Positions 25,304-43,024 of a DNA stretch of 62,211 bases are shown here, in pieces. Within the stretch, counting starts at the first letter, position 1, and each line of letters opens with the position of its first letter. Source of the DNA: Hyphomicrobium sp. (GTDB taxonomy: Bacteria > Pseudomonadota > Alphaproteobacteria > Rhizobiales > Hyphomicrobiaceae); contig JASBSU010000038.1 in NCBI GenBank assembly GCA_030148725.1, forward strand, positions 1 to 62,211. The letters are read 5' to 3'. Below the pieces are notes generated by a model. That model was not told the DNA's origin. It worked only from the letters and a program-made list of their open reading frames with translations, and did no database searches. The position numbers were made by a program, and so were the translations under genes.

Positions 25304-28300
25304 CACTGGCCCGCGGTGACGGTGAGCTTGCCCGCCGCCGTGCGCGCGTAGCGCTCGGGACGATACATGTCCTCCACCGTCGCTGCCGGATGGACGAATG
25401 CACCGGGCGTCACGGCGCGAACGAGGTAGGCGACGGTCGCCGAAGCGGCCGGTCCCTTGGTGCTCGTCTGGCCGTCCGGCGTCGCCTCGGCTTCCTCGCT
25501 TGCCGCCGCGACATTGCCAGCCGAGAGGTTGAAGGCCGCAACGAAACGGTCGTCGCGGAACTCCGAGTGCTCCGGCTGCACGGTCGTCTTCAGCCAGTCG
25601 AGGGCTTTGACATCGCCGCTGTCGACGAGACGCGGGTTATCGATCTCGAATCCGGCAGGCAGACGATCGACCAGCATCACGCGGCCACCCGGCTCCTTGG
25701 CCGTGATCTTCACGACCGCAACCAGACGCTCGTTCTGCTTGATCTGCGCTTCTCCACCGACCGCACTCTTGAGGTCCACCGGCTTGCCGTCGAGCGTGTA
25801 GTAGCTGCGCTCCACGGTGAAGCCTTTCGAGACCGGAGGCTCGGGCGTCAGAGCCGAACCGATGACGCTGACCACGGCATCAACAGGTGCTTCGCCCTCG
25901 TTGGTAACGGTGAGCGGAGCCTTGAGCAGTTCCTCCGCCGACATCGCCCGCGTGACCGCACCGACGACCGGCGCGCCGTTGACGATGAGCTTCAGGTCCC
26001 GGCCCTCCTGGCTCAGCGCGTTCGCCGCCAGCAGCATCCAGGCCTGCTCCTGCGTCGAGGTGTAGTTCCGCGCCGTGTAGGCCTTGGCGATGACATTGAT
26101 GAGCTTCGGCGCTTCGACGTTCGAGACGCGCGTCTCGCTCGCCAAGGTCACCAGTGCCGCGCTGTCACGCAGGTCCGAGCCGTAGTCGGCGCGAAAGCCG
26201 CCGAGCCCGGTTGCTTCCGGCAGATCGAGCGCACCGAGCGCCGAGCCGAACGCCGTCTCGGCACGCACCTTGTCGCCCATCATCGCCAGCGCCGCACCGA
26301 GCTGGGCCCGCGCCAACGGCGTCGAGAAGCGGTCGATACGCGTATCGGCGTAATAGCGCAGATCGCCGATCGGCGCGCGGCCGTTGCGGGCGAGAACGTA
26401 GAGCGCGTACGCCCGGTCCTCGCCGCCCTTCTGGAAGTCCTCGGCGTAGGCGATGAAGTTCTGCAGCCTGTCGAGCGCCTGGTTGAAGCCCTGCGGGTTC
26501 ACCGCAAAGCCCTGCTCCTTGGCGCGTGTCAGGAAGTCGGTGACGTAGCCGGTCAGCCAGAGATCCGTCGTCGACGGCCCCCAGACACCGAACGCGCCGC
26601 TGTTGTCCTGCATCTCGAACACGCGATCGACGGCCTTCTGCACGCGCTCCTTCAGCTCCTTGTCGGGCGCAATGCCAAGCTGCGAGGCAACCGCGTTCGC
26701 GTAAAGCAGCGGCAGTGCACGGCTCACCGTCTGCTCGGCGCAGCCATACGGATAGCGGTCGAGCGACGTCAGCAGCGAGGGAACGTCGAGCCGCGCGATT
26801 GGCCCGGCACTGATCGACACGCGGGTGCGTGAGGCGATCATGTCGCGTACGAGGTCGGGGCTGAGCGAGATGTTTCCACCCGGCTTCAGCGTGGCGACGG
26901 TCGTGCGCTTGATGTCGGCCGCCGGCGGCTTCACGTCGAACGTCAGGTGACGCTTGACGTCGATGCCGTCGGGACCGGTGACGCGGATGTCGTAGTCGAT
27001 GAGGCCGACGTCCGTCGGCTTGATCGGCACCTGCACCGCGCGCCGCTCGTTCGCCTTGAGGTCGAGGCTTGCCGTGTGCACGGACGTCTCGCCGTTCAGC
27101 AGATCGACTTTGTATGCCGCCGCGGGCCCTTCGACATTGTGCACGGCGAGGTCGAGGCGAGCCTCATCGCCGAGCGTCAGGAACCGGGGACCGGACGCGG
27201 TAAGCGCCACGGCATCGCGTACGATCACGTCGGCTTGACCATGCCCGAGCTTGTCGGCGCTCCAGGCAACGGCCATGAGGCGCACCGTGCCGTTGAAGTC
27301 GGGGATGTCGAAGTTGACCGTGGCAGTGCCATCGGGACCGACGCTGACGATGCCAGAGAACTCGGCAACCGTTGCTTCGACCGGCGGGCTTCCCTGCAGG
27401 CCAAGGTCCGCGCCGCCGTCACCGCCCGAGCGCAGCGTGCCGCGTTCAGCGCGCATGCCGTCGATCAGTCGGCCGTAGAAGTCGCGGATTTCCAGTCCCA
27501 TGCGACGCTGCGCGTAGAACCAGTTCTCCGGCGCCGGGGTTTGGAAACGCGTCAGGTTGACGATGCCGAGATCGACTGCGGCGAGCGTGATGCGTGCCTC
27601 CTCGCCGGCCTTCAACCCTTCGATTTTCACCGGAACAGTGAGCGTCGTGCCGGACTTGATCTTCTCCGGCGGCGACATCGCAACGCTGAGCGTCTTGCTC
27701 GCCTGGTCGAGGCCGAGCCACTGCACGCCGATGGCGCGCGATGGCATACGCTTCAGGCTTTCATCGAGCGGACGATAGAGCATGGCGGTCACGTAGGCGC
27801 CCGGCCCCCAGTCCTCGCCGACCACGACGTCGGCTTCGCCACCGCCGTTCGGCACCTCGATTTCCTGCTGCGACAGCAGCCCGTTCGACAGAACCGACAC
27901 GAGCGCCTTTCCGCCAAGCTTGGTCGCGATGCGCAGCTTGGCCGTCTCGCCGCTCTTGTAGCTCGCGCGGTCGAGCGCCACGTCGAGCACTTCCGGGCTC
28001 TCCGCTTCGTTCGACGCCGAGTACCAGCCGGCGTTGAAGGTCATGCTCGCCGCCGGACCGCTGGGATCGGCCGAGGTCACATCCAGCTTATAGCGGCCCC
28101 ACTCGACGCCAGCCTCGATCTTGGCGAAGGCGCCGTCGGCAGATACGTCGAACGTGCCGTCGGCAACTTTGCGCGTCAGCGTCACGGCCTCGTAGTTCCA
28201 CTGGCCATCGCGACGATACCACTGCCAGTTCGTGTCGAGGCGATTGAGGACCCAGCTGAGGCCCTTCGCATCGACGCGCTTGCCGGCGCTGTCGAGCACG

Positions 28301-30612
28301 ACGACTTCAAACCCGGCCGTTTGCTTCTCGTCGAGCTCCGACGCTTTGAACAGCGGCTTCAAGCCGACGCGAGGCTGCTTGAGATCGACCGGAATTGTGA
28401 CGCTGCGTTCGATGGTGCGGCCGCCCGATTCACGCAGCCGCAGAATGACGTTGGCTTCGAGCGGCTTTGCCGTCTGAGTGACGGGCGGCAGAGTGACGGC
28501 TACCTGGGCGACACCCTGCGCGTCCGTCGTGGTCGAGGCTTCGAGCGGCTTCCTCACCGGTTCGATGGCCTCGTCGGCCTGCCCGAACGTGAAGCCGGGA
28601 TAGCCGTCGACGTCCTTTTTCGACGGGCGCACGACGATATCGCCCTCGATGGCGAGGTCGGCTGCCGGCGGCCCATAGAGGTACCGGCCGGTGGCCTTGA
28701 TGGTCTGCGTCTCCTGCGGAGCGAGCGCTGCGGTTGGCGCCTCGATCTTGAGGTCCAGCCGCTCGGGCACGAAGTCTTCGACGAGGAAGGACACCTGCGT
28801 GATGGCGTCCTTGTTCGGATCGGTGTGCAGCTTCGCACGCCACGTGCCGGTCTGCGCCGACGGTGCCAGAGGCAGCGTGATGTCACGGCCGCCGAGCCCG
28901 CGATCCTTCAGCGTGTAGCGCGCATGCTCGACGCCATCCGGCCGCGAGACGATGAGCGTCACCGGCAGGCTCGCCGCCTTCCCGGCCGCGTCACGGACGA
29001 GCGCCGCGATATGCACGTCTTCGCCGGGGCGGTAGACGCCGCGCTCGGTGTAGACGAACCCGTCGAGCGGTCCCGGAGCCTCGCGGCCCTTCACGCCACG
29101 ATCCGTCAGATCGAACGCGCCGGACGTCAGGTCGAGAAACGCGTATTCGCCGTTCGCATTCTCCGCAACCAGCATCGCTGGCTGCAGACCCCCTTCACCG
29201 CGCGCGAGGCCGGCGTCGAAGCGCGCATAGCCGCGTGCGTCGGTCTTGGCGGTGCCCAGCACCTCGTTGTTGCGGGCGATCAGCTTTACGTTCGCTTCGC
29301 CGGAAGGCGTCGCGTCGGCGAGCGAGCGAACGAACGCGTGCACGCCATCGTCACCGGTGAATGCGGTGAGGCCGAGGTCCGAAACGATGAACCACTGCGT
29401 CGCCTCGGTGCCGTAGTCATCGCGCGACTTCTGCGTCGGCTTGGCGACCATCACGTAGACGCCCGGCTTCAGCACACCAACCGCGTCAGTGACCGGCAGC
29501 GCCGTCGTGATCTCCTCGTTGAGCTTCTGCGGCACGTCCATCGAGCCGGTGAAAACCTTCTCGCCCGTCCGCGACTTGATCTGCTCGATCTCGTAGCTCT
29601 GGAGCTGACGCTGGAAATCGCCGTTTTCGAGCGCACCGACGAGGTTGCGATCGTTGATGCGATAGACCTCCACCTCGACTTTCGAGGTGTTGATGGAGAC
29701 GAGCGGAATGCCCTGCTGTCCGCGGCTCGGCAGCACATAGGACTTGCCCGAGAAACGCACGAACGGCTTGCGGTCAGGAACGTAGACCGCGATCTCGATG
29801 GATTTTCTCAGTTCCTCTTCTACGGAGGAAGGCAGCCCTGCGCGAACCTGCACCTGATAGCGCTGGCCGTGCGACAGCCCCTCGATGCAAAGCTGCTCGT
29901 TCTCTGCCGTTACGCTTTGCGGATCTTTGCCGTCCACCGAGACGAACTTGCTGAAATCGACCTGTCCGCGTGCCAGCCCCTCCGAGAACTGCAGGCACAG
30001 GCGCGGCGACGATGTCTCTGCGTCCGACTTGTAGTCGGTCATGCGGAAGCCGTGCTCGGTCCGCAGCTTGTCGTACGTCTCGCGCACCGCACTGTTGTCG
30101 GCGAGCGCAAGGCTCGTCTTCAGCGCATCGAGTGCCGGGCGCCAGTAGGAGCGCCGCTGCAGAGCATCGCCCAGGACCGCCAGCGCCTTGGCCCGCTGCG
30201 GATCGTTTTGGCTGCGCTCATATCCGATGTACGCTGCACCCGAGGCGTTGACCGGCAAGTCATAGCGCTCGCTGTCCTTGTTGGGATCGGGCGGAATGGC
30301 GAGCAGCGCGCGTGCCAGGCCCACCCAGCCGTCCGCGTCGCGGCTGTCGGCGACCGCCGCACCGGCGAAGCTGCGCGAGGCAGCGCGCGGATCGGAGCGC
30401 AATTGGCGCTCGCCCTCTCGCTTGAGGTCGGCGGCACTCTTGTCCGACAGCTTCCAGTTCGACTTGAGATACGCCTCGTAGCGTTCGGCATCCGATTTGA
30501 CGCCCTGATGGGCGAACGGATGCACGTCCTGCGAAGCCTGTTGCTGCGCCAACGCGGGCGTCAGCGGCAGTATGAGCGTGAAGGCCATGAATAGGCGCGC
30601 GAGCAATGACAT
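25303..30612 (-). CDS. Bacterial alpha-2-macroglobulin with intact thioester motif
   Basis: The 1769-residue product has a signal peptide (LLARLFMAFTLILPLTPALA), an N-terminal helical section and a long series of macroglobulin-like beta-sandwich domains. The bait and thioester region follows. The thioester CxEQ is present as GCAEQ (Cys1291, Gln1294, in YPYGCAEQTVSRAL), so covalent trapping of proteases is possible; many bacterial relatives have lost it. A helical thioester domain and receptor-like C-terminal domain follow. It acts in the periplasm, in E. coli together with PBP1C, the next gene here with overlapping codons. The start has AAGGTGG at a good distance. Confidence 0.95.
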   Translation of the reverse strand: MSLLARLFMAFTLILPLTPALAQQQASQDVHPFAHQGVKSDAERYEAYLKSNWKLSDKSAADLKREGERQLRSDPRAASRSFAGAAVADSRDADGWVGLARALLAIPPDPNKDSERYDLPVNASGAAYIGYERSQNDPQRAKALAVLGDALQRRSYWRPALDALKTSLALADNSAVRETYDKLRTEHGFRMTDYKSDAETSSPRLCLQFSEGLARGQVDFSKFVSVDGKDPQSVTAENEQLCIEGLSHGQRYQVQVRAGLPSSVEEELRKSIEIAVYVPDRKPFVRFSGKSYVLPSRGQQGIPLVSINTSKVEVEVYRINDRNLVGALENGDFQRQLQSYEIEQIKSRTGEKVFTGSMDVPQKLNEEITTALPVTDAVGVLKPGVYVMVAKPTQKSRDDYGTEATQWFIVSDLGLTAFTGDDGVHAFVRSLADATPSGEANVKLIARNNEVLGTAKTDARGYARFDAGLARGEGGLQPAMLVAENANGEYAFLDLTSGAFDLTDRGVKGREAPGPLDGFVYTERGVYRPGEDVHIAALVRDAAGKAASLPVTLIVSRPDGVEHARYTLKDRGLGGRDITLPLAPSAQTGTWRAKLHTDPNKDAITQVSFLVEDFVPERLDLKIEAPTAALAPQETQTIKATGRYLYGPPAADLAIEGDIVVRPSKKDVDGYPGFTFGQADEAIEPVRKPLEASTTTDAQGVAQVAVTLPPVTQTAKPLEANVILRLRESGGRTIERSVTIPVDLKQPRVGLKPLFKASELDEKQTAGFEVVVLDSAGKRVDAKGLSWVLNRLDTNWQWYRRDGQWNYEAVTLTRKVADGTFDVSADGAFAKIEAGVEWGRYKLDVTSADPSGPAASMTFNAGWYSASNEAESPEVLDVALDRASYKSGETAKLRIATKLGGKALVSVLSNGLLSQQEIEVPNGGGEADVVVGEDWGPGAYVTAMLYRPLDESLKRMPSRAIGVQWLGLDQASKTLSVAMSPPEKIKSGTTLTVPVKIEGLKAGEEARITLAAVDLGIVNLTRFQTPAPENWFYAQRRMGLEIRDFYGRLIDGMRAERGTLRSGGDGGADLGLQGSPPVEATVAEFSGIVSVGPDGTATVNFDIPDFNGTVRLMAVAWSADKLGHGQADVIVRDAVALTASGPRFLTLGDEARLDLAVHNVEGPAAAYKVDLLNGETSVHTASLDLKANERRAVQVPIKPTDVGLIDYDIRVTGPDGIDVKRHLTFDVKPPAADIKRTTVATLKPGGNISLSPDLVRDMIASRTRVSISAGPIARLDVPSLLTSLDRYPYGCAEQTVSRALPLLYANAVASQLGIAPDKELKERVQKAVDRVFEMQDNSGAFGVWGPSTTDLWLTGYVTDFLTRAKEQGFAVNPQGFNQALDRLQNFIAYAEDFQKGGEDRAYALYVLARNGRAPIGDLRYYADTRIDRFSTPLARAQLGAALAMMGDKVRAETAFGSALGALDLPEATGLGGFRADYGSDLRDSAALVTLASETRVSNVEAPKLINVIAKAYTARNYTSTQEQAWMLLAANALSQEGRDLKLIVNGAPVVGAVTRAMSAEELLKAPLTVTNEGEAPVDAVVSVIGSALTPEPPVSKGFTVERSYYTLDGKPVDLKSAVGGEAQIKQNERLVAVVKITAKEPGGRVMLVDRLPAGFEIDNPRLVDSGDVKALDWLKTTVQPEHSEFRDDRFVAAFNLSAGNVAAASEEAEATPDGQTSTKGPAASATVAYLVRAVTPGAFVHPAATVEDMYRPERYARTAAGKLTVTAGQ

Positions 30613-30840: not shown

Positions 30841-31425
30841 TTACTGGCGTTGCAGACCCTCGGGGATGCTCTCCGCTGCAACGCCGATCTCTGGCATCTG
30901 GGCGAGCGCGGCGGCAAGCGGCGGAACCGTGAAGAGCGGTGCCGTTGCGCGCCACAAGCTCTCGAACGAGCGGGTGGCGTGCGCACAGGTCTGCGCGCAG
31001 TTGGCGGCATAGTTCTCCAGGGCATCACGCTTGCCGGGGTCGCGACGCATGCAATCGCCGACCCAGGCCGTGGCCGGGGCGAGGACGAGCTGCTCGTGGG
31101 CTGCCAGCAGGCGCTGATCGCGAACGATGCGGCACTCGCTCGGCATCGCGAACGGGCCCATCTGCTGCACGGGGTGAGCCGAATCGACTTCGCTGAAGAT
31201 GGCGCGCACACGAATCCCCATCGACGCCATGCGCTCGGCATGGCTACGCAGGGCCTGCGCGACCGGGCTTTCGGGAGAACGGGCGATGAGCAGATAGCAC
31301 CCGCCCGTAATATGCAGGCCGTGAGCGGAGCGGGCATCAAGATCGTCGCCGATGAAGGCCGTCAGCTTCGCGACCTTCTCGGCAATGGACTGGCCATGCA
31401 GAAGAGATGGAGTTTCATTGGACAT
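30841..31425 (-). CDS. Hypothetical protein of 194 residues
   Basis: I do not recognise this family. The product is soluble, mixed alpha/beta, and rich in Ala, Arg and Cys (six Cys, of which Asn-Cys-Ala-Gln-Thr-Cys-Ala-His forms a close pair). It opens with helix LLHGQSIAEKVAKLTAFIGDD, then a strand GLHITGGCYLLIA followed by helix PVAQALRSHAERMASMG. No membrane segment or signal is seen. The start at 31425 is chosen because GGGGGACC lies upstream; the frame is open to 31524. It stands alone, 151 bases after the 851-residue membrane protein gene on the same strand. Confidence 0.68.
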   Translation of the reverse strand: MSNETPSLLHGQSIAEKVAKLTAFIGDDLDARSAHGLHITGGCYLLIARSPESPVAQALRSHAERMASMGIRVRAIFSEVDSAHPVQQMGPFAMPSECRIVRDQRLLAAHEQLVLAPATAWVGDCMRRDPGKRDALENYAANCAQTCAHATRSFESLWRATAPLFTVPPLAAALAQMPEIGVAAESIPEGLQRQ

Positions 31426-31576
31426 GACCGTGGTCCCCCTTGTTGCCCGGGATCGAAGCGCGAGACATGTCCCACCGGGTTTGTTGCTGTTGCCGCTCAT
31501 TAAGCTGCCATTTCGGTTAAGCAAGAGTTTCAGACTGACTCACGATGAGTGAATTCGAGCGTGCGCGGACAACGGC

Positions 31577-34132
31577 TTAGTCCACCATCCTGCGAAGCAC
31601 CCGTGGCGGCTCGAAGTCCACAGAGAGCGAATCCTGTGGATCGGAAAGATCCTCCAGAAGCAGCGTCTCAGAGTTCGCAACGGGCTCCGATCCCGTTGTG
31701 GCAAGCGCCAATTCGAGCTGATCGGTGCGCTGATCTTCCGTCTCGATCTGCAGCGCGTCCGACAGTCTCTTGATCGCCTCGGGAAGCGAAGTGTCGCCGA
31801 CCGGCACGTGGAAGGTTGCGGTCTCGCGTCGCAGCTCGACGCCGATGGTCGCGTGAACGTCGCTGTCACCGCGCGTCTGGCCAGGCGCGGGGAACGGAAC
31901 GACGACGGTCTGCTCTTCGACGGCCGGCGTGGTGCGCGCGGTGTTGCTGTTGGCCGGATCCGGCGCTTCCTCTAGGGCTTCGTAGGTGGAGAGTTCCGCT
32001 TCCGCGAGGCCTGCATAGTTCCCGAAGCGCTGGCGATACGCTTTGTCCGCCTTCGGGTCCGGCCGCATCGAGACAGGCTCTCGCTGGCGCTCCGGCTCCT
32101 TCATGGCGGCCGAGACCGCCGGCCGGCTTGGCCGCAGCGTCGGCTCAGGAACCGCGCCCGGACGATGCTGGAAGATGCTCGGGCGGCTCCGGCGCCGGCG
32201 CACAGTGAGGCGCGAGGCTGCCTCGGGCAGCTCCCGGCTCTCCGATTTCGGCTGCACGGCTTCCTGGATTTCGCGTTCGAACGCCGCCCGCACCTCGGGC
32301 ACCTCTTCCACCGCCGGCCGCATGGCCTCCTGGCGCCGGCGCTCGGCCTCGATGCGACCCGCTGCGCCCATGACGGCCCCGAGGATCATCTCCGGCCAGG
32401 CGCCGTTCTTGAAGGCGTAGATCCTGAACGCGGGAAGCTCCTCGCCGTGGCGGTCGGCGACGAACATGGACTTCAGCCCACGCAGCGCGCGCGGCACGGG
32501 CGCGATCTGGCTGTCCCGGTAGCATTCGATGAACTTCGACCCCTGCCGGCGCAGCTTCCGATGCGCGACGAGCCCCGGCGCGATCTTCCACGGCCGCGAC
32601 AGGACGCCCTGTCCTTCAAGCGCATAGCAGAGGTTGGCGAGCGCCTGCGCGTCGCGGCGCAGCTGTTCCCGCTGCGGGTGATGGCGCGGCGCATTGAGCG
32701 GCACCGCCACGTAGTAGGTGCCACCCGATTCGAAGATCACCTCGCGGAACACATCGAACGTGCGCCGCATATCCTCGTGGTTATGGATCTCCGAGAACCG
32801 CGACAGGATAGGGAACACCGGCCCGCGCTCCGCCTCGATCATGCTCTGCCGCGTCGCGACGAAGCGGTTCATCGGCCGCCCGATGGAAACGAGCAGCAGG
32901 CACAGGTCCACGAACACGGCAACGCCGAGCGGAATGTAGTCGCGTTTCGACAGCCCCACCGCCTCGTTGTTGAGGGCATGCAGTGCAGCCGGATTGTCGA
33001 TCGACTGCACGGCCCGCTGCTGCAGCACCCGCAACTCGTCGGCCGACGGCGGCAGCTCGAATGAAAGGAGGCCGATGAAGGTCGCCGTCAGGCGCCGGAA
33101 GGCTTCGATGGTGGCTTCCGAGCCCTCGACAGCCGCAATCTCCGGCTTCTCCAGCGTCGGAAGTTGGTCGATGGCGCGGACGACGCCACGTAGTGCCACC
33201 TGCAACTGGGCGTCGGGGCACGAGATCGATTTGCCGTTGCCTGTGTCGATCGTCGTCCGCTCAGCCCGGTCGGCAAGATCGGTCCGTATCTGCCGCAGCT
33301 GCGGGTCGGTACGGAACGCGTTGAAGCCCGTCACCGTCATGTCGAGGCGACGTCCTAGCAAGCGCATGAACTCGTTGCGCGTGCCCGTCGTGGCATCGAC
33401 CGTCGAAGCATCGTTCGAGACGATCTTGACGAGATCGGCATCGAGCGCCGCCATGTCGCCCTTGATCGACGTGACGCGTGTTTTGACGAACTCGGACGCA
33501 AAGCCGAACCGCGCGGCATCCTCATCGCGCATCTTCCGCCGCGGCCCGTCGCCCGGCGAGGAATTGGGGCATGTCGTCCCGCGCTCACGTTCGACGCCCG
33601 CCTTCTCGGTCGATAGCGCCGCGAGTTGAACCAGCGTTCCTTGCAACTGTTCGAGCCGCGTTGCCGCGCCGTGCAGCGACGATTGCACCTGGCCGACGGC
33701 ACTCTCCGCCGAACGCGCGGCTTCCGACCGGCTCTCTAGGACCTTCCAGTAGAATCCGAAGCCGAAACCGACCGAGATGACGGTCAGGAACACATACCCG
33801 AACAGGTAGGAAAGGCGCGTGAACCAGTCGATCGGCGAGAACATCTGGTCGAGCAGCCACACGACCATCGTCATGAGCATGGCGACCGAGAAGCCGATGA
33901 TCAGCTTATGGACGAGCGGCAGAACGCCCATGTTGCTCTCGATGAGCTCGAGCATGCCGACGTACGTCGCGACCCAGGAGAGGCCGGCGAGACCGACGAT
34001 CAGAAACAGCTTCTTGTAGTCGCGCTTCGGCCGTTCCGGCTCGGCCCAATCGGCCGCCGACTCGAAGCCGTAGCCCTGGCTTCCCGGGGAAGTTCTGGTG
34101 CGCGACCAAGGCGCGCCCGTCCGCAACGACAT
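31577..34132 (-). CDS. Large membrane protein with periplasmic coiled-coil region, unknown
   Basis: The 851-residue product has three clustered membrane segments near the N-terminus (about 40-60, LFLIVGLAGLSWVATYVGML; 72-95; 100-122, ending FGFGFYWKVLE). A periplasmic part of about 290 residues follows, with coiled coil (AATRLEQLQGTLVQLAALS) and two lone Cys, then a fourth segment (near 420-440, DYIPLGVAVFVDLCLLLVSIG). The long cytoplasmic tail contains TFDVFREVIFESGGTYYVAVPL and then low-complexity charged sequence. The family is not recognised. The ATG at 34132 (AGCAGGTC upstream) is used rather than TTG 34159. It follows the divergent PBP gene by 238 bases and may be co-expressed with it. 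Confidence 0.82.
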   Translation of the reverse strand: MSLRTGAPWSRTRTSPGSQGYGFESAADWAEPERPKRDYKKLFLIVGLAGLSWVATYVGMLELIESNMGVLPLVHKLIIGFSVAMLMTMVVWLLDQMFSPIDWFTRLSYLFGYVFLTVISVGFGFGFYWKVLESRSEAARSAESAVGQVQSSLHGAATRLEQLQGTLVQLAALSTEKAGVERERGTTCPNSSPGDGPRRKMRDEDAARFGFASEFVKTRVTSIKGDMAALDADLVKIVSNDASTVDATTGTRNEFMRLLGRRLDMTVTGFNAFRTDPQLRQIRTDLADRAERTTIDTGNGKSISCPDAQLQVALRGVVRAIDQLPTLEKPEIAAVEGSEATIEAFRRLTATFIGLLSFELPPSADELRVLQQRAVQSIDNPAALHALNNEAVGLSKRDYIPLGVAVFVDLCLLLVSIGRPMNRFVATRQSMIEAERGPVFPILSRFSEIHNHEDMRRTFDVFREVIFESGGTYYVAVPLNAPRHHPQREQLRRDAQALANLCYALEGQGVLSRPWKIAPGLVAHRKLRRQGSKFIECYRDSQIAPVPRALRGLKSMFVADRHGEELPAFRIYAFKNGAWPEMILGAVMGAAGRIEAERRRQEAMRPAVEEVPEVRAAFEREIQEAVQPKSESRELPEAASRLTVRRRRSRPSIFQHRPGAVPEPTLRPSRPAVSAAMKEPERQREPVSMRPDPKADKAYRQRFGNYAGLAEAELSTYEALEEAPDPANSNTARTTPAVEEQTVVVPFPAPGQTRGDSDVHATIGVELRRETATFHVPVGDTSLPEAIKRLSDALQIETEDQRTDQLELALATTGSEPVANSETLLLEDLSDPQDSLSVDFEPPRVLRRMVD

Positions 34133-34370
34133 CGATGACCTGCTCAACCCATCGCGCAAAAGCGGTCGCCCGCTCGCGACGTTTGCCGTCGCAGAGCAGC
34201 TTCAACCACCGAATGCGCGAACGCCTCTTTCGCCCTTCAGTGTCTTGCCATCGTGCCGGTAAGTGATCCGGGAGTGTTGGTAGGCTTGGTTTTTGTCGCC
34301 AGTGCGGCGTCGCAGTGGCGGAACGCTGCAGTCCACACACGCGCGCTATGCGCAGCCGCTAACGGGGCAC

Positions 34371-36806
34371 TCAGTTGGAACTCAGCTTCGCCCCGCTCTT
34401 GCGCGCGGGCGGCGGTGCGGCCGTTTTCGCCTTCATCGCGGCAGGCTTCTTTCCCGTCGCTTCGGCTTCGAGGTCTGTCAGCAGCGCCTCCAGCAGCGGC
34501 ACTGCGACCTGCGCCGCGTGGAGGCTGCGCGCCCACGGATTACGCGCCGAGCCGGTGCCGACGACGACCACGTACGAATAGGCGGCGCCGTTCGCGAACT
34601 GCAACCCGCCGGCGATCCAAGCATCGACTGTCGCGTTGACGTCCTCCGTCACCTGCGTGCCGGTCTTGGCGAAGTGCAGCTTCAGGCCGGGATGCCGGTT
34701 TGCGCACCAGTGGGAGAGATCCTTCAGGGTACCCGTCGGCTTGCCGCCCGCCTCATAGCAAAGCGGCGCCTGCAGCAATCCGCGAACGAGTGGCCGCGCG
34801 CCGGCCCGGATGACCCGATCCGGGATGACACGTCCACGCGGGTCCGGCGCGGTCTCGTCCGTGCTTGTAAAATCGTACTGCTTGATCAGCGTCGGCTGTT
34901 GCAGCGGTGATCCTCCGCGGCCGATGAGGCTAGCGAGGACCACGCCAGCGAGGTGATGGACGCGCCGTGGGGCGGCTGCAACCTGGCCAAGGACCACCGC
35001 AGTCGAAGGTGGCGTCCCGCTGCCGTCGGCGTTCGTCGGTGGCATCGTGAAGCCGAGTTGGTCGATCAGCCGCTTCATGCGCGCCTGCCCCACCTGCGCG
35101 GTACGTGTCATCAGCGGATCGTTGAGCGAGCACGCGAACGCCGTCAGCGCTCGGCGCCCATGCTGCTGATCCCCGCGCGCGCAGGTGTCGAGGCCCTGCG
35201 CCGGTGCATGCGCGTCGGAATAGACCGATTGCGGCGTATCTCGCAGAGTGTTGGCGATGGCGATCGCGGCGATGATCTTGCCCGTCGAGGCAACCATCCG
35301 GCTTTCGCGCGCGGCGTCATAGAAACCGGTCGTCGTCTCCCGCGCGAAGGGCGATCCAAAATAGGCGGCGTTCTCGCCCTGCTCGAAGTACCGCACGATC
35401 TGGCCATTCGCATTGGCCGCGGCGACGATCACGCCCGGGCTGTGCCGGTCCTCGGAGATCTGGGCTGGATCGAGCGTATACCCGCTGTCGATCTTATCGG
35501 CATACCGCGCGTTGATGTCCGACAGCTTATCCCGCGTCGTCGCGGCGAAGGCGAGGTTCCGTGCCGCGTCGAACGTCGTCGTCACGCCGCGCACGTGATC
35601 GCGCCACGCAAAGCCGTAGTGTTCTTTCATTTCTTCGCGGATGCCGTAGCGCGCCGCCGGCATCAGGGCGTTGGCGCGTACCACCGGGTTCGCCTGCGCC
35701 GGCAGCGCCAGCCCGGGCGCGTACTTGTCGAGCGCCTCCTGCAGTCGCGGCTTGATCTTCGGATCGGGAGGGCCGGCGGCCATCGTGACGAGCTCGAACA
35801 GCACTTCCTTCAGCTGCGCCTCGTCCTTGATGAGCTTCTCCGCGCACGTGCGCGCCCGCACCTCCGTGAGATACCGCCAGCGATCGAGCCGCACCGCGTT
35901 GAGCCGCTCGCTTCCCTCCAGCAGGATGATTGGGCGGTTCACTGCCGACGCCAGCACATACTGCTGGGCAACCGAGAGGTCCGCCGCCTCCTTGCCGAAC
36001 ACGATGCGGCTCGTCAGCTCGATGCCGTGCAGCGGTGATCCGCCCGTGCGCTGCGCCAGCCACAGGTGATCGGCCGCCCATTGCTTCAGCGCCCGGTTGT
36101 CGCCGCCCTCCGTAAGCTCACGATAAACGACCGGCGCCAGCCACCACTCGCCGAGCTTCCGCTTCAGTTTGACGAACGCACCCTCGTGCAGCCCGGGCGG
36201 CGTTTTGTAGATGACGCGTACGAACTGCATGGCGAGCGTCGAGCCGCCGACGCCCAGCGACAGGCGCTTGGAAGCGATCGAGCGCTTGACGGTCGAGAAC
36301 GGGATCTTGAGCACCCCCGGCAGGTCGATGCCGTAGGGGTTGAGAATGCCGCCGAGGTTGCGATCCTCGTGATAGACGAGGCATTGCCAATACTGCTCTG
36401 GCACCTCGCGCGCCGGGATCGACTTGTGGTCGGGGTTCGCGATGTAGTCGCCGAGGTCGATCGCCTCGCTCGAGTAGTTGACGTCGCGCAGGCTGTCGAG
36501 ACGCGGATCGAAGGTGCCGACGAAGCTGCCGCGCACATCGTAGATCGCCGTCGCGAGCCAGCGCTCAGCGTCGTAGTGCAGCCTGTCGCCGAGCGTGTAA
36601 TGCCCGATGAATCCGCGGACGGGCGCAAAGACGTAGACGAGAAGGAGAGCAAGAGCGCAATACGCGATGCCGGCGCCAGCGATATGGCGCAATGGTCCCA
36701 GCCGCGGATTGAAGGCGACGCGGTCGAGGAGCAGCTGCAGGATGCGGAACGGCAGCAGCAATAAAAGCTCGAGCGCCCGCAACAGCACGCGAAAAATGAC
36801 GAGCAT
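34371..36806 (-). CDS. Divergent class A penicillin-binding protein (GT51 plus transpeptidase)
   Basis: The 811-residue product has an N-terminal membrane region with two hydrophobic stretches (4-32 and about 43-68). A GT51 domain follows (motif 1 HEDRNL at Glu147; motif 2 GGSTLAMQ), then a transpeptidase with SxxK at Ser507/Lys510 (ASTGK), SLN at Ser560/Asn562 and KTG at Lys714. All transpeptidase motifs are intact. GT motif 1 departs from the usual EDxxFxxHxG(I/V)D: Leu replaces Phe, and the His position is shifted or replaced (LGGILNPYGID). The C-terminus is Lys/Ala/Pro-rich. It is not PbpC or Pbp1A by length or motifs. The start lacks a strong ribosome-binding site. Confidence 0.85.
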   Translation of the reverse strand: MLVIFRVLLRALELLLLLPFRILQLLLDRVAFNPRLGPLRHIAGAGIAYCALALLLVYVFAPVRGFIGHYTLGDRLHYDAERWLATAIYDVRGSFVGTFDPRLDSLRDVNYSSEAIDLGDYIANPDHKSIPAREVPEQYWQCLVYHEDRNLGGILNPYGIDLPGVLKIPFSTVKRSIASKRLSLGVGGSTLAMQFVRVIYKTPPGLHEGAFVKLKRKLGEWWLAPVVYRELTEGGDNRALKQWAADHLWLAQRTGGSPLHGIELTSRIVFGKEAADLSVAQQYVLASAVNRPIILLEGSERLNAVRLDRWRYLTEVRARTCAEKLIKDEAQLKEVLFELVTMAAGPPDPKIKPRLQEALDKYAPGLALPAQANPVVRANALMPAARYGIREEMKEHYGFAWRDHVRGVTTTFDAARNLAFAATTRDKLSDINARYADKIDSGYTLDPAQISEDRHSPGVIVAAANANGQIVRYFEQGENAAYFGSPFARETTTGFYDAARESRMVASTGKIIAAIAIANTLRDTPQSVYSDAHAPAQGLDTCARGDQQHGRRALTAFACSLNDPLMTRTAQVGQARMKRLIDQLGFTMPPTNADGSGTPPSTAVVLGQVAAAPRRVHHLAGVVLASLIGRGGSPLQQPTLIKQYDFTSTDETAPDPRGRVIPDRVIRAGARPLVRGLLQAPLCYEAGGKPTGTLKDLSHWCANRHPGLKLHFAKTGTQVTEDVNATVDAWIAGGLQFANGAAYSYVVVVGTGSARNPWARSLHAAQVAVPLLEALLTDLEAEATGKKPAAMKAKTAAPPPARKSGAKLSSN

Positions 36807-37402: not shown

Positions 37403-40400
37403 TCATCCGCGCTTCGCAGTGTGCGTAGAAGCCCCGCGCGACGGCCCGTCGAACAGGCGCAGCTGACGCTCGTCCTGCCCCTTCGTCTCGCGCGAAAGCT
37501 GCTCGATCCGATCGAACGGAACCTGCTCCGCCATGATGAGCGAACGCTGCGCCTTCATCGGACGCACGAGGCCTTCCTGCACGAGGTGGAACTCGCCGAC
37601 CGTCTGGCCAGGAAGCACCGCCGCCGGCTCCAGGCCGGACTCGCTCTGGAACGCCGCCTTGAGCTTGCGAAGCGCCGTATCCTCGCGCACGCGGCCGATG
37701 AACCAGCTCGTGATCTGATCGCGGCTCTTGTAGTCGAGATCGCCGGGCGACTGCGTCGCGAGCATGATGCCGAGCCCCGCCGAACGCGCACGCTTCAAAA
37801 GGCTCTGCAGCGGCTCCGCAGTCGCGGGCTTGGAGTTCGCCGGAATGTAGAGGTCGGCCTCGTCGAACATGACGACGGCCTGCAACTCGTCGTTCGGGTT
37901 CCGCTGGCAGAACCGCAGGGCCTCCGAAAGGAACTGCGACACCCAGAATAGGATGTTCTCGTTGTCGCCGAGGAAGCCGGTGTAGATGATCGACAGCCGC
38001 GTACGCCCCTCGCGCGCATATTGGCCGAGGCCGAGGAAAGCCTCCATGCTGAGCGGCTCGCCGCCGCCCTCGAACAGAGCCGAGTTGCGGTGCCGGAGAC
38101 TGTCGAGCTGCGCAACGAGGTCACGGCGAATCTTGCCGGACGGGTCCATGCGCTGCGTGAGATCCGAAAGCTCCGGATCCTCGTCTTCCAGCAGGTGAAT
38201 AAGGTCGGTGAGAGTGACCTCGCGGCTGTGACGCGAGCCGAGAATGCGCAGCGCAACCGACAGCGTGCCCCACTGCTTCTGGTGGGTCGCCGAATGCTTC
38301 AGATGCAGCATGTCGCCGAGCGCCGCTGCAGAAAGGTTGGCGAGCAGCTGCTGCTCGTGCTCCGGCAATTCGTTGATGCCGTTGGGAAGCAGCGTGATCG
38401 AGATCGGACGCCCCGAGGCGCGCCCAGGCGTGAAGACGGCGACGTCGATGGCGTCGGCAAGCTTTTCGCGCTCGCCGCGACGCTCCGAGAAGCCCTCGTC
38501 GTTGTCGCGCCAAACGTCCGGATTGGCGTAGCTGCAAAGATCGCCCTTACGGTCGATCAGCACCGCCGGAATACCTCGTAGCAGAAGCTGCTCGATGAGG
38601 CTCAACGCCAGCGTGGTCTTACCGGAGCCTGAGCCACCGAGCACCGCTGCGTGGCGCTTGAGGACGTCCTTGTTGAGCGTGACCGGTCGCGCACCCTGAC
38701 GGATCTGGCGGCCGGCAAAGATGCTCGATCCCGAAGCATTCTCGTCGAGAATGACCGACAACGGCAGCTCTTCCTCTTCGGTGGTCGCAGTTTCGGCATT
38801 GTCGCCCGCTTCAACCGGAGCGCTGGCGGCCTCATCGAGCGCGCCCATCAGGCTGCGCGAGCGATTGGCCTTCGACCCGTTGGCGGCAGCTTCAGCCTCG
38901 GCCGCAGCCGACTTCGGCAGCGCCCGTCCGAGCAGATCGAGCCGCAGGAGCTGAATGATGCTGGGCAGGTTCGAGAGCAGCTTGGCATTGCTGAGCCAGC
39001 CCATGAAGCCTGGGTCCTGGCGGTGGTGCGTGTGGAACTCGCGCACCATCATCATGCGCTCCCACTCGGCCAGCGGCACGATGAGCGCCCGCCCGCCGTT
39101 CTCGCGGAATTTGCGGAACGCCGTCGCAGTCTGGTTCTTGCGGTTCGGCGGATAGTCGGACGCACGCAGCATGAAGCACTGCTTTTCGCCCATGTTGGCG
39201 AGAACGCGGTCGAGCTGCCGCTTCAGGCCGCCGCCCTGCGTCGGCTTGTTGCAGATGAAGACGCGCCCGTCGGTCGTCAGGCCGCCCTGGTGCCGCAGCG
39301 TGAAGTCGATGGCGCCGAGATCGTCTCCGAGCTCCAGACGCTCCGAGCTGAGCAGGATCGTTCCCGCCCATTCTTCTTTGGCGAGGACCAGTGCGCCGGA
39401 CAGCACATCAAGTAGTTCGCGCTCGTCGGACGGAATTTCCGCCTCGGACGCGTTCTGAAAGCGCTCCCAGGCTTCGCGGTAATCGACGCTCGGCATCGCC
39501 GGCGTCTTGTCTCCGTCCTCGGCAAGGCCGAGACCGAGCGCCGCCGCGAGCCGCGAAATGAACCCGCCGCCGCCGCCCTTGTCCGCCTCGGCTTCGTCCT
39601 CGTCAGGCTCTTCACCCTCGGGACCGGTCTTGGAACGCAAGCGGCTGTGGGCATGCTCGAGCAGCCGGCGGGTCGAAAGCCCGGAGAACTCCTCGTAGAA
39701 CTGCGGTCCGAAATAGGCGGACGGATCGGAATAGCCGGCGCCCGTCTCGCTGGTCTCGGCGATGTGCTGCAGCCGCTTCGCAATGATCAGGCGCGCCTCT
39801 TCCGGCGTGCGCGATTCGAGCAGCGCTACCGGGCCCGCTTTCTCGATGCGGTCGATGTAGGACTGCGCCAGCACGCCGCGCACCTGGCCGTAGAAATCTT
39901 CCAGGCACGAGATGATCAGAATGGCGTTGGGGACGCGGTTGGCGATCTGGATGAGGTCGCGCACCGCGCGCTGGAAGCGCTCCTCGGCGTCGGAGAAGAA
40001 CCGCAGGTCCTCCACCTGATCGACGCAGAATACGAGCGCCGCGCTGTCGACGGTCCACATCAGCGCACCGAGCGCGGCAATGATTTCGAAGGCGCGATCT
40101 TCACCATCGTTCGGATCGAGTGCGGCGACGGCCTGATGCGCAAGCTCGGTGAGCGGGCGGCCGTGCAGGTATTGGCGCACGCGCTGATCGATGCGCGGAT
40201 CCCGGCGCTCCAGATAGAGCAGCGCCCGCACGACGTTGATGTCGAGCTCGCGCGAGGCGTACTTCGGCGCCGCGACGACATCGTCGGCAATCTTGAGAAC
40301 GAGCTTCGCGAGCTTTGCCTCATCGAGGTTGGCTTCTCGCAGGTTTGCCAGATCCTTGGCGTCGACGGCGGCATCGGCCACCATGCGCCCGGTAAGGCGC

Positions 40401-40807
40401 TGCAGGGCAGTCTCGCCCGAGGAATCCGGATCGTACGTCTTCTCCAGCGAATGCACGAGCCGCCGCAGGTAATAGTCTGCGTAGTTGGCGACGTCCGGCG
40501 TCATCTGCGCATAGCCGAAATAGGCCGTGCCGTCGCGATGTGCCGACGTGCGCAGGGCACGCAAGAGGTGGGTCTTTCCGGCGCCGGATTGTCCATGGAA
40601 CAGCAGGATACGATCCTGCGTGCCAGGGCCGCGCCCGGACGTGATGCTCGTCAGGAGGTCGGAGAATTTGCGCCGCGCCTTGGCGTGCACTTCCGCGACG
40701 TCGACCGGATCGGCGCGCCAGATATCGTCTTCCCAGGTGATCGATTGCTCGAACGCCGAGAAGAGTCGGTCCGGAGCCGGTTGCGGAGAAGCTTCTTTAA
40801 GCTGCAT
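37403..40807 (-). CDS. Dual P-loop ATPase: AAA/ORC-like domain fused to HerA/FtsK-like domain
   Basis: The 1134-residue product has two nucleotide-binding units. The first (about 15-400) has Walker A GQSGAGKTHLL (Lys78) and Walker B LVFCVDQVED (Asp263), as in ORC/STAND-like AAA ATPases. A charged linker with an acidic and glycine run follows near 400-430. The second (about 690-1110) has Walker A GGSGSGKTTLAL (Lys730), Walker B VVMFDEADLYIP (Asp982, Glu983) and GIMLATQSPGDLD, as in HerA/VirB4/FtsK motors (DUF87). It lies 21 bases after the winged-helix-like gene, with GAGGGG before the start. No nuclease is adjacent. Function unknown; DNA translocation or defence is possible. Confidence 0.85.
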   Translation of the reverse strand: MQLKEASPQPAPDRLFSAFEQSITWEDDIWRADPVDVAEVHAKARRKFSDLLTSITSGRGPGTQDRILLFHGQSGAGKTHLLRALRTSAHRDGTAYFGYAQMTPDVANYADYYLRRLVHSLEKTYDPDSSGETALQRLTGRMVADAAVDAKDLANLREANLDEAKLAKLVLKIADDVVAAPKYASRELDINVVRALLYLERRDPRIDQRVRQYLHGRPLTELAHQAVAALDPNDGEDRAFEIIAALGALMWTVDSAALVFCVDQVEDLRFFSDAEERFQRAVRDLIQIANRVPNAILIISCLEDFYGQVRGVLAQSYIDRIEKAGPVALLESRTPEEARLIIAKRLQHIAETSETGAGYSDPSAYFGPQFYEEFSGLSTRRLLEHAHSRLRSKTGPEGEEPDEDEAEADKGGGGGFISRLAAALGLGLAEDGDKTPAMPSVDYREAWERFQNASEAEIPSDERELLDVLSGALVLAKEEWAGTILLSSERLELGDDLGAIDFTLRHQGGLTTDGRVFICNKPTQGGGLKRQLDRVLANMGEKQCFMLRASDYPPNRKNQTATAFRKFRENGGRALIVPLAEWERMMMVREFHTHHRQDPGFMGWLSNAKLLSNLPSIIQLLRLDLLGRALPKSAAAEAEAAANGSKANRSRSLMGALDEAASAPVEAGDNAETATTEEEELPLSVILDENASGSSIFAGRQIRQGARPVTLNKDVLKRHAAVLGGSGSGKTTLALSLIEQLLLRGIPAVLIDRKGDLCSYANPDVWRDNDEGFSERRGEREKLADAIDVAVFTPGRASGRPISITLLPNGINELPEHEQQLLANLSAAALGDMLHLKHSATHQKQWGTLSVALRILGSRHSREVTLTDLIHLLEDEDPELSDLTQRMDPSGKIRRDLVAQLDSLRHRNSALFEGGGEPLSMEAFLGLGQYAREGRTRLSIIYTGFLGDNENILFWVSQFLSEALRFCQRNPNDELQAVVMFDEADLYIPANSKPATAEPLQSLLKRARSAGLGIMLATQSPGDLDYKSRDQITSWFIGRVREDTALRKLKAAFQSESGLEPAAVLPGQTVGEFHLVQEGLVRPMKAQRSLIMAEQVPFDRIEQLSRETKGQDERQLRLFDGPSRGASTHTAKRG

Positions 40808-40828
40808 CAGTCGATGCCCCTCGACGTC

Positions 40829-41962
40829 TCAGTCTTCGACGCGCACATAGTGCCAAACGGTATTCTTGTAGAGGATCGCGGACTCCTCGAATTCTTTGAT
40901 GTTTTGTTTGTTTTTTAGATCGGCGCCAGCCAGCACCAATTGCCCCGCGCGGTGCGCGCCGGCCAGCATGTCTTTGAATTCGATCTCGGAAAGACCCCAT
41001 TCGGGGTGCGAGGTGCGAATCGCGTCCCACACCCGAGAGATAAACGCCTTGCGCGCCCCTGGCCAGCCCTCGGCATTGCCGCGTGCCGCATTGAGCACAC
41101 CGGCAGAAAATTGCGAGAGTCCAGGGCGCTGCTGCGCCGCTTCCACTTGCGGTGTGAGCGCGACCACTGGCGCCGGAATTGATTCGGTCGCCTTCCGCAA
41201 GGCAACTCTTGGACTTATCGGCGCCGTTGCTGGTGTATCCGCACCTGCAAGCTTGCGCAGTATCGCCAGGCGCAGGCTGTCACCATCCAGGCGGGCAACG
41301 CCGGTCTGGTCGGTGCACAACGCGCTGATCAGGCGCACGTCGGTCGGTAGCTCACGTGGCTTTGCGAGAAGCTGGCCAGCTAGAACACGCCCGGCCTTGG
41401 CCGACAGCGCCGCGCCTTTCTCAAGTCCTTCCTTGACGTTATCGCCGAAGGCGCGCTCCAGAGCGACGAGCGCCAGCGCGGCCCGCAGCTTCGACGGCGA
41501 AAGCGCCTGCCGAACCGAAAGTCCGAATGCGTGCTGCACCAGCAGTGCGGAAAGTCCGTCCACCCGCGACAAGGCACTGCGCAACGCCGGCTTGCTGGCG
41601 TCGACGCCGAGCCCCTTCGCCACCAGCCAGATATCGCGCTGGTCGGACCATGTCCGTGTGTGCGCGTGCTTCTCGCCAAAATAGCTCGCCACCATCGTCT
41701 CGCCGATCTCGGAGAGGCGAAGCCGGCCGCGCTGCTCACGCAGGATGCCGGCAACCATCAGTCGCGCCAACGTCGTATCCGCCGTGGTGCGCCACTGGGT
41801 GGCAGACAGCTTAGGCGTCGCGATGGAATTGAGGTCTCGCACGATCTGTGCGCGCGTGGCCCCGCCCGCGCAGGCAACGCGCGCAAGAATGATGTCGTCG
41901 AGGCTGGTATGCGATGCGCCGCTCAGCGGCAGCGCCCCGGCGCTCCTGCTCATGGCTGACAT
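40829..41962 (-). CDS. Winged-helix-like partner protein of the dual ATPase
   Basis: I do not recognise this 377-residue family. The N-terminal 90 residues read as a winged helix: DDIILARVACAGGATRAQIV, then TLARLMVAGILREQRGRLRLS as recognition helix and wing, followed by EIGETMVASYFG. A mostly helical middle follows, then a linker rich in Pro and Ala (about 240-275). A second small domain (about 290-377) also suggests a winged helix: RKAFISRVWDAIRTSH, IEFKDMLAGAHRAGQLVLA and a final ILYKNTVWHYVRVED. GAGGAG stands before the ATG. The 21-base gap to the ATPase gene shows that the two work together, probably as DNA or regulator and motor. Confidence 0.78.
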   Translation of the reverse strand: MSAMSRSAGALPLSGASHTSLDDIILARVACAGGATRAQIVRDLNSIATPKLSATQWRTTADTTLARLMVAGILREQRGRLRLSEIGETMVASYFGEKHAHTRTWSDQRDIWLVAKGLGVDASKPALRSALSRVDGLSALLVQHAFGLSVRQALSPSKLRAALALVALERAFGDNVKEGLEKGAALSAKAGRVLAGQLLAKPRELPTDVRLISALCTDQTGVARLDGDSLRLAILRKLAGADTPATAPISPRVALRKATESIPAPVVALTPQVEAAQQRPGLSQFSAGVLNAARGNAEGWPGARKAFISRVWDAIRTSHPEWGLSEIEFKDMLAGAHRAGQLVLAGADLKNKQNIKEFEESAILYKNTVWHYVRVED

Positions 41963-42277: not shown

Positions 42278-42292
42278 TTAACGGCGAGTTAA
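42278..42292. promoter_or_regulatory. CtrA full-site box (TTAA-N7-TTAA)
   Basis: TTAA (42278-42281), seven bases, TTAA (42289-42292) is an exact match to the CtrA consensus of alphaproteobacteria. It sits 57 bases before the CAP-domain lipoprotein ATG, where it could overlap the -35 region of a CtrA-activated promoter. The rest of the 387-base divergent gap (41963-42349) has no further recognised element. Confidence 0.7.
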
Positions 42293-42349
42293 CGGGTTTA
42301 CGCGATGATCAACCGTTGTACCGCATCCATCCACGCGGGAGTGGCCTGT

Positions 42350-43024
42350 ATGTATCGCGTCGCGCTTTGCGCAGTGGCTGCCATTGCTATGGCAGCCTGC
42401 AGCCTGGGATCTCAGTCGATCTCCTCGGGCTACAATCAGCCTGACACCACGGCTTCCATCAATTCATCGCCCAACGTGCAGAGCGTTGCGCTCGGCGGCG
42501 AGCCGTCCGTGCCGCGCGCCAAGACCCCTGCGGTCGCTGGCCAGCAGTATGCCGCGCTCGATCAGGCGCCGAAGGGCTCGTACGAGAAGGCGCCGACAGG
42601 TGCCCTGTCGGATCGCGATTATTCGCATACCGCGCTGGACGCCGAGCGCGCGCGCGACATCATCAATCAGTACCGCAAGGACAAGGGCCTGAAGCCGCTG
42701 AAGCTCAACGCCGAGCTGACAGAGGCAGCCAAGGCGCACGCACGCGATCTCGCCAAGTGGGACCGCATCTCGCACTATGGCTCGGACGGCTCCAACCCGT
42801 GGGACCGTGTGAAGCGCACCGGCTATCATGCGCGACTGGCCGCCGAGAACGTCGGCACCGGCCAGGTCGATTTCAATGAGGTCATGCGCGGCTGGAAGGA
42901 AAGCCCCGGTCACAACAAGAACCTGCTTCTCGGCGACGCGACGCACATGGGCATCGCCCTGGTGCAGGACCCGCGCACCGAGTTCAAATCCTTCTGGACG
43001 CTCGTGATCGGCTCGCCGATGTAG
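42350..43024 (+). CDS. CAP (SCP/PR-1) domain lipoprotein
   Basis: The 224-residue product has a lipoprotein signal (MYRVALCAVAAIAMAAC, lipobox MAAC). A disordered Ser/Pro/Ala stretch to about 95 and a CAP domain follow. In the domain are DIINQYRKDKGLKPLKLNAEL, AKAHARDLAKWDRISHYG, the AAENVGTG segment and the active-like pocket WKESPGHNKNLLLGDATHMGIAL. His of SHYG and of SPGHNKN match the conserved CAP cavity histidines. The start at 42350 has GCGGGAG upstream; an ATG at 42305 adds 15 residues before the signal. The CtrA box just upstream suggests cell-cycle control. The molecular role is unknown. Confidence 0.88.
   Translation: MYRVALCAVAAIAMAACSLGSQSISSGYNQPDTTASINSSPNVQSVALGGEPSVPRAKTPAVAGQQYAALDQAPKGSYEKAPTGALSDRDYSHTALDAERARDIINQYRKDKGLKPLKLNAELTEAAKAHARDLAKWDRISHYGSDGSNPWDRVKRTGYHARLAAENVGTGQVDFNEVMRGWKESPGHNKNLLLGDATHMGIALVQDPRTEFKSFWTLVIGSPM

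Follow-up and report, generated by a model that had tools for sequence, protein, structure and literature searches.

What is the role of an ATPase that joins an Orc/CDC6-like AAA unit to a HerA/FtsK motor, if no nuclease is found at its side? This question is raised by a two-gene locus in the stretch of 62,211 nucleotides analysed here (the window), which is contig C15 of a 3.84-Mb genome and whose large gene has its nearest named relatives in Hyphomicrobium. All features of the pair lie on the minus strand. The upstream gene (40829..41962) is translated into a protein of 377 residues, referred to below as the partner, and the second gene (37403..40807) into an ATPase of 1134 residues, for which translation, Pfam and alignment point to a fusion of an Orc-like AAA unit, a restriction endonuclease (REase)-like domain and a HerA/FtsK motor. 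A gap of 21 bases (40808..40828) separates them in an operon-like arrangement, with GAGGAG ahead of the first start and GAGG ahead of the second, as judged by eye. The two open reading frames and their spacing are as the first-pass annotation had described them; it had overlooked that both run on the minus strand. We propose, with a probability of about 0.45, that the pair is a nuclease-less, chromosomally fixed loader-translocase of the Orc/CDC6-HerA/FtsK capture type, which would have been domesticated for use on host DNA. The proposal builds on two ATPase domains with conserved ATPase residues, on the coupling of the two genes, on their family-wide presence and synteny, and on the lack of a recognised nuclease nearby.

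The N-terminal part of the large protein is an Orc/CDC6-like AAA unit (residues 40-395; 39623..40690), with K78 in its Walker A motif and D263, followed by Q264, in its Walker B motif. Pfam places AAA_22 and AAA_16 above their cut-offs, starting at residues 64 and 50, respectively, and scores BrxC_BrxD at 22.7 bits vs a cut-off of 22.2; the Foldseek matches include structures of BrxC, TnsC and ORC-Cdc6, none of them with E < 0.001. The C-terminal part (residues 690-1120; 37448..38740) is a HerA/FtsK motor, where DUF87 (45 bits) and HerA_C (42.5 bits) both exceed the Pfam cut-off from about residue 699. Its Walker A K730 and Walker B D982-E983 are accompanied by R1006/R1008 and Q1019, which, by analogy with the description of DndH in the available text of PMC10853773, may be the arginine finger and the sensor-1 glutamine. 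Eight of these residues (K78, D263, Q264, K730, D982, E983, R1006 and Q1019) are invariant in 82 of 82 aligned full-length orthologues, some of which are near-identical and come from two overlapping collections, and R1008 and Q1019 are invariant across the 13 sequences of a wider alignment. Compared with three close relatives, the large protein has a ratio of nonsynonymous to synonymous substitution rates (dN/dS) of 0.06-0.11, and its motor one of 0.04-0.07. The predicted model, built on a shallow alignment, has a mean predicted local distance difference test score (pLDDT) of 63 and is poor in the motor; searched as a whole with Foldseek it yields no match at E 0.001 or better. HerA ranks first (E 2.1e-3) and the REase EcoT38I second (E 2.9e-3, probability 1.00, low TM-scores), followed by more HerA chains, BrxC at rank 6 and, lower in the list, EndoMS; RNase H and APOBEC appear as well. 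Pfam and Foldseek agree on an Orc-like AAA unit and a HerA/FtsK motor in a single chain, as the first-pass annotation had read them. The ATPase residues it had named (Lys78/Asp263 and Lys730/Asp982-Glu983) also stand, but its description of two P-loop units is incomplete because the domain lying between them went unseen.

The two genes belong together. Among the 84 loci examined, they adjoin on one strand in all 72 where both were called; the pairing is far beyond chance. The calls come from a simple caller that picks open reading frames and that missed genes: it called the large gene in 81 loci, nine of them without a called partner (in seven of these the sequence reaches only 0-2 bases beyond the start, whereas L077 and L107 do have the partner), and it left uncalled the large genes of L102, L104 and L105, which nevertheless give tblastn matches. 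An orthologue of the large protein is present in 35 of the 36 genomes of the family (G000-G035, the window's own included), G022 being the one that lacks it, and in five of 24 other genomes of the order (G036, G043, G050, G052 and G059, that of G043 being a fragment at a contig end). The partner is found in 34 of the 36 (it is absent from G014 and G022) and in four of the 24. Conservation of the pair, checked in related genomes, holds across part of the Hyphomicrobiales. Outside this range, the partner profile matches one of 289 genomes in a sample of the class, which is the window's own, and two of 299 clearly in a sample of the phylum, one being again its own, with three further marginal matches (E about 0.008-0.009). 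Of 103 relatives in a scan of named genomes, 80 were kept; Hyphomicrobium, Filomicrobium and Hyphomicrobiaceae are frequent in their titles, and metagenome-assembled genomes named Methyloligella and Rhodomicrobium are also among them. The carriers include Hyphomicrobium zavarzinii, H. facile, H. sulfonivorans and Filomicrobium insigne. The 50,697 phage records searched contained no match, a pattern search of viral contigs likewise gave none, and 72,556 plasmid records gave four distant partial matches, two of them on records that look chromosomal by size or ribosomal genes.

The surroundings of the pair are conserved as well. Its commonest neighbours in the 84 loci are a divergent CAP lipoprotein gene (52), a transglycosylase (36), a D-Ala-D-Ala carboxypeptidase (34) and a flippase (23). 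Flanks of 5 kb or more on each side are available for 54 loci, counting the window; 49 of these have at least one of six neighbour families of the window and five have none. These envelope-gene neighbours follow the synteny of the family. Beyond the pair itself, neighbour families on the same strand reach at most 36 of the 84 loci, and a conserved third operon gene, considered as a candidate, was rejected, the common neighbours being family synteny. Evolutionary distances of the large protein rise and fall with those of the genes around it, both for five flanking ones (Pearson 0.82-0.93, Spearman 0.55-0.76) and for the partner (Pearson 0.80, Spearman 0.67), in a comparison that includes no unlinked or horizontally transferred control gene. 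The pair is chromosomally fixed, vertically inherited and under purifying selection. Since it is passed on vertically as a trait of the family and no recognised nuclease goes with it, handling of host DNA is its most likely use.

The reduced genome G014 (1.8 Mb, about 95% complete) bears on this use. It carries the large gene on a 14.1-kb contig with a GC content of 0.40, and the protein is full-length, 63% identical, and agrees with the window at 14 of 15 checked residues, with Arg at position 521, the state of most orthologues. No partner was found, either genome-wide at E <= 0.001 or within 4 kb ahead of the large gene on its contig, and it could sit in the missing part of the genome. The retention of the large protein in such a genome fits a host function better than accessory defence. 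It is possible, and we suggest it tentatively, that an anti-invader machine was domesticated in the ancestor of Hyphomicrobiaceae and their kin, lost its nuclease, and became a fixed and strongly constrained chromosome loader-translocase, that is, a second FtsK-class motor beside FtsK, with a DNA-binding subunit that could be lost in a reduced genome.

Hyphomicrobium and Filomicrobium, to which many of the named matches belong, are hyphal budding bacteria, and a HerA/FtsK motor is present in the large protein. The pair might be a second motor of the FtsK type, specific to this lineage, by which Hyphomicrobium and its kin would move the chromosome through the hypha into the bud. However, it occurs also in a Methyloligella-named genome, a genus that divides by fission, and in a second family. 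We regard this explanation as unlikely, even though segregation of the chromosome into the stalk-tip bud has been described for Hyphomonas neptunium (available text of PMC6650430).

No nuclease partner adjoining the motor had been noticed in the first pass, and Pfam likewise recognises no nuclease family among 14 neighbours in the window, four of which have no family at all. A search in trans gave NurA in none of 36 genomes and DUF559 in 13 of them (8 of 22 in the window's own family); the window's own genome lacks both, and therefore no constant partner in trans was seen. Mrr_cat occurs in 19 of 60 relatives but is missing from the window's own genome.

Could the nuclease then be contained in the large protein itself? 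Between the AAA unit and the motor lies an alpha/beta domain (residues 440-630; 38918..39490), whose ten-residue pLDDT means are mostly 74-88, with three blocks at 60-64, and which, by the order of its strands and helices, Foldseek and hhalign, possibly has a REase-like fold. Since Foldseek reports no aligned model residues, we infer rather than read off that the matches to EcoT38I and EndoMS fall on this domain. A profile comparison by hhalign with eleven Mrr-type domains (Mrr_cat) places D501 on the Mrr aspartate, both with 15 and with 82 sequences; C519-N520-K521 falls on the QxK motif with the 15-sequence profile and one residue off with the 82-sequence profile. The score is 19.7. The margin is small, because 3 of 200 column-shuffled controls do as well, with a mean of 12.9 over the shuffles, and in the same comparison the AAA segment reaches 14.7 and the motor segment 17.1. 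Against three close relatives, dN/dS of the domain is 0.05-0.16. An enzyme that captures and cuts DNA with one chain, its active site being altered, could be suspected from the invariance of E479, D501, C519 and N520 in 82 of 82 orthologues and from the two structural matches. However, it lacks a (D/E)xK motif: C519-N520-K/R521 stands at or beside the corresponding place, and position 521 varies (70 of the 82 have Arg, 11 have Lys and one has Gly). Moreover, of five aligned sequences from the second family all keep E479 and C519 and four keep N520, but none keeps D501 (Glu in two), and the published class discussed below has an inactive REase at the same place (PMC10853773). An active nuclease in the middle domain is very unlikely, and judging from its sequence the domain is probably catalytically dead.

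The AlphaFold model of the partner (mean pLDDT 82) can be read as an N-terminal winged-helix-like region (residues ~20-95), a helical middle (105-238), a linker of low confidence (243-274) and a C-terminal winged-helix-like domain (282-377), which supports the winged-helix-like character that had been assigned to it from the sequence. Foldseek returns many matches of the winged helix-turn-helix (wHTH) type, none with E < 0.01. Pfam gives no match above cut-off, PADLOC and NCBIfam give none, and no kinship to DndG/SspB was detected by the PADLOC search. Against three close relatives, dN/dS of the partner is 0.17-0.22; by region it is 0.17-0.29 in the N-terminal winged helix, 0.05-0.08 in the C-terminal one and 0.54-1.36 in the short linker.

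The first-pass annotation knew no named system with this composition; there is one, at least as a prediction. Mobile 'HerA/FtsK capture systems', coupled to Orc/CDC6 ATPases, were predicted in 2024 from genome comparison (PMC10853773) and are proposed to seize invader DNA; the available text describes an Orc/CDC6 ATPase that is followed by an inactive REase, together with a HerA/FtsK motor, wHTH proteins and an active REase. A 2026 article that calls this study its authors' own earlier work adds BREX-related capture systems (PMC12839542). The available portions of the two articles contain no experiments on capture systems, and no word beginning with alphaproteobacteria, Hyphomicrob or Rhizobiales occurs in the main text of PMC10853773. 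No further literature on the capture class was among the matches listed, nor any on HerA in Hyphomicrobium among the best 10 of 105. The window pair shares with these systems the Orc/CDC6 AAA+ unit, the HerA/FtsK motor and probably a separate multi-wHTH protein in the operon, domain fusions being variable in the published class; it may share the inactive REase-like domain behind the AAA unit, as position and hints of fold suggest, although 3 of 200 shuffles do as well. On the other hand, no wHTH is seen in the model between the REase-like domain and the motor, no active REase was found beside the pair, and the locus is fixed across the family (35 of 36 genomes) rather than set in a mobile neighbourhood. 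Since neither an active nuclease nor mobility was found, we class the pair as a variant, perhaps with the same way of working as a capture system, rather than as a plain member.

Other systems resemble the pair only in part. DndH of DndFGH also has a C-terminal HerA/FtsK motor, which follows a REase domain there (PMC10853773), but the DndH model of PADLOC matches weakly (E 2e-7, best stretch residues 974-1057), and neither DndF nor DndG has a PADLOC match among the partner and five neighbours tested. HerA-NurA has the same type of motor, and HerA structures are among the best Foldseek matches; in the window, however, the motor is fused to an Orc-like AAA unit, and NurA is missing as reported above. 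The HerA_antiphage model NF042943 reaches 30.6 bits vs a curated cut-off of 800. The BREX proteins BrxC and BrxD have an AAA unit of the Orc/Cdc6 type, the N-terminal structure of BrxC being in the Foldseek list, but BrxD scores 34.5 bits (E 1e-8), far under its 350-bit cut-off, and PglX and PglZ with BrxC have no PADLOC match in the partner and the five neighbours, which is where they were searched for in this genome. Membership in MADS was considered and rejected. Its mad8 model gives 73 bits on the large protein and about 140-182 bits in 106 of 200 genomes, matches that we read as FtsK motors in general and for which we rejected the membership; no mad model matches the partner or the five neighbours, and nothing on mad8 was found in the literature with MADS terms.

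More distant relatives are found outside the family. On the conjugative Xanthobacter plasmid pXAUT01, a partial copy (L131, 6769-9278) combines a partner-like protein (profile E about 1e-17) with a 455-residue protein (E 5e-21) that has the AAA unit without the motor half, and transposase genes lie just past its end. Used as a query, this AAA half matches eight genomes of the second family of the order (f30) more strongly than the window's own family, the eight being a count without a denominator. In all eight the partner gene lies directly ahead of a fused protein (1016-1173 residues, or 810 at a contig end), as seen with a partner profile that, for five of the eight partners, contained the matched sequence itself; nine neighbours tested, drawn from three of the loci, include no nuclease family. 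Three-gene operons of DUF559, a small gene and an AAA-HerA protein are found in Methylobacterium aquaticum, Nonomuraea, Tsukamurella and genome G248. Like the window pair, all four, when aligned, have a fused AAA-middle-HerA protein behind a small gene, and the profile of the window's large protein matches both halves in Nonomuraea and Tsukamurella and only the motor half significantly in Methylobacterium. Unlike the pair, they are 21-22% identical to it and carry the extra DUF559 gene, and their small partner (223-235 residues) is not matched by the partner profile, being winged-helix-like by one sub-threshold Pfam match. A profile of these relatives finds 6 of 398 genomes of a phylum sample at E <= 1e-20, three of them (G000, G029 and G059) of the window's kind, and no system joining DUF559 and HerA was among the literature matches listed, as far as their available text goes. 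The operon of Tsukamurella tyrosinosolvens (L134, 1492-8963) stands between ribosomal-protein genes, an odd place for an insertion, in a stretch that also holds a DEAD/DEAH-box helicase gene and a VapB-PIN pair.

The main rival explanation is a standing anti-invader system, which would seize plasmid, conjugating or phage DNA and either stop it or pass it on to a nuclease that the host encodes elsewhere, so that no dedicated nuclease would have been kept in the operon. Several points weigh against our proposal, and some of them also count for this rival. Systems of this architecture are predicted defence systems, and the domain set equals theirs (available text of PMC10853773); a distant relative sits on a conjugative plasmid, without the motor half and near transposase genes; other distant relatives carry the nuclease-like DUF559 gene; and the fast-evolving N-terminal winged helix of the partner is as expected for a sensor of invaders. 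Besides, a match at E <= 1e-60 in 28 of 297 genomes across the order means that a general housekeeping role is not what the pair has, no control gene backs the correlations of distances, and the assignment of a REase-like fold to the middle domain, drawn from sequence and model, is weak. The neighbouring proteins of 860 (31577-34159, minus strand) and 227 residues (30841-31524, minus strand), present in 21 and 20 of the 84 loci, have no Pfam family, and therefore a nuclease of an unknown type is possible. Nonetheless, defence genes usually spread sporadically, and presence in 35 of 36 genomes with common synteny is unlike that. The lack of a constant DUF559 or NurA in trans and the retention of the large protein in the reduced genome also disagree with a standing anti-invader role, which we hold to be doubtful, though a serious contender.

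Upstream of the pair, a TTAA-N7-TTAA box (42278-42292), which we take to be a CtrA-like consensus, precedes the divergent CAP/SCP lipoprotein gene (42305-43024, plus strand). The box occurs in 46 of 65 loci, i.e. in 42 of 51 with a called CAP neighbour and in 4 of 14 without, and we assign it to the lipoprotein gene because in most loci its spacing to that gene, and not to the pair, takes one of two small values. Control of the pair by CtrA was rejected on the same ground, and the box suggests that the lipoprotein gene is under cell-cycle control. A pattern search for LexA boxes gave none in five close relatives. Elsewhere in the window, an 811-residue protein (34371-36806, minus strand; its family in 36 of the 84 loci) matches a transglycosylase domain only (Pfam 53 bits), Pfam recognising no transpeptidase in it, and at 23033-30612 (minus strand) a bacterial alpha-2-macroglobulin of 1769 residues adjoins a penicillin-binding protein 1C.

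If the pair is a domesticated loader-translocase, as we propose, the winged-helix partner would bind DNA and recruit the large ATPase, the Orc-like AAA unit would act as a nucleotide-controlled loader or clamp, and the dead REase-like domain would offer an extra surface for DNA binding or docking, while the HerA/FtsK part would form a closed ring and pump double-stranded DNA. The machine, taken over from an anti-invader ancestor, would be used on the host's own DNA in segregation, clearing or replication-linked loading. All of these steps are inferred, as are the use on host DNA and the course of evolution from defence to host role. Parts of a predicted defence machine are here a fixed gene pair of a bacterial family, without a recognised cutting enzyme. 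If our proposal is true, this would be a link between prokaryotic immunity and the handling of the chromosome, and the non-mobile version in named species would provide a setting in which the capture model may be examined.

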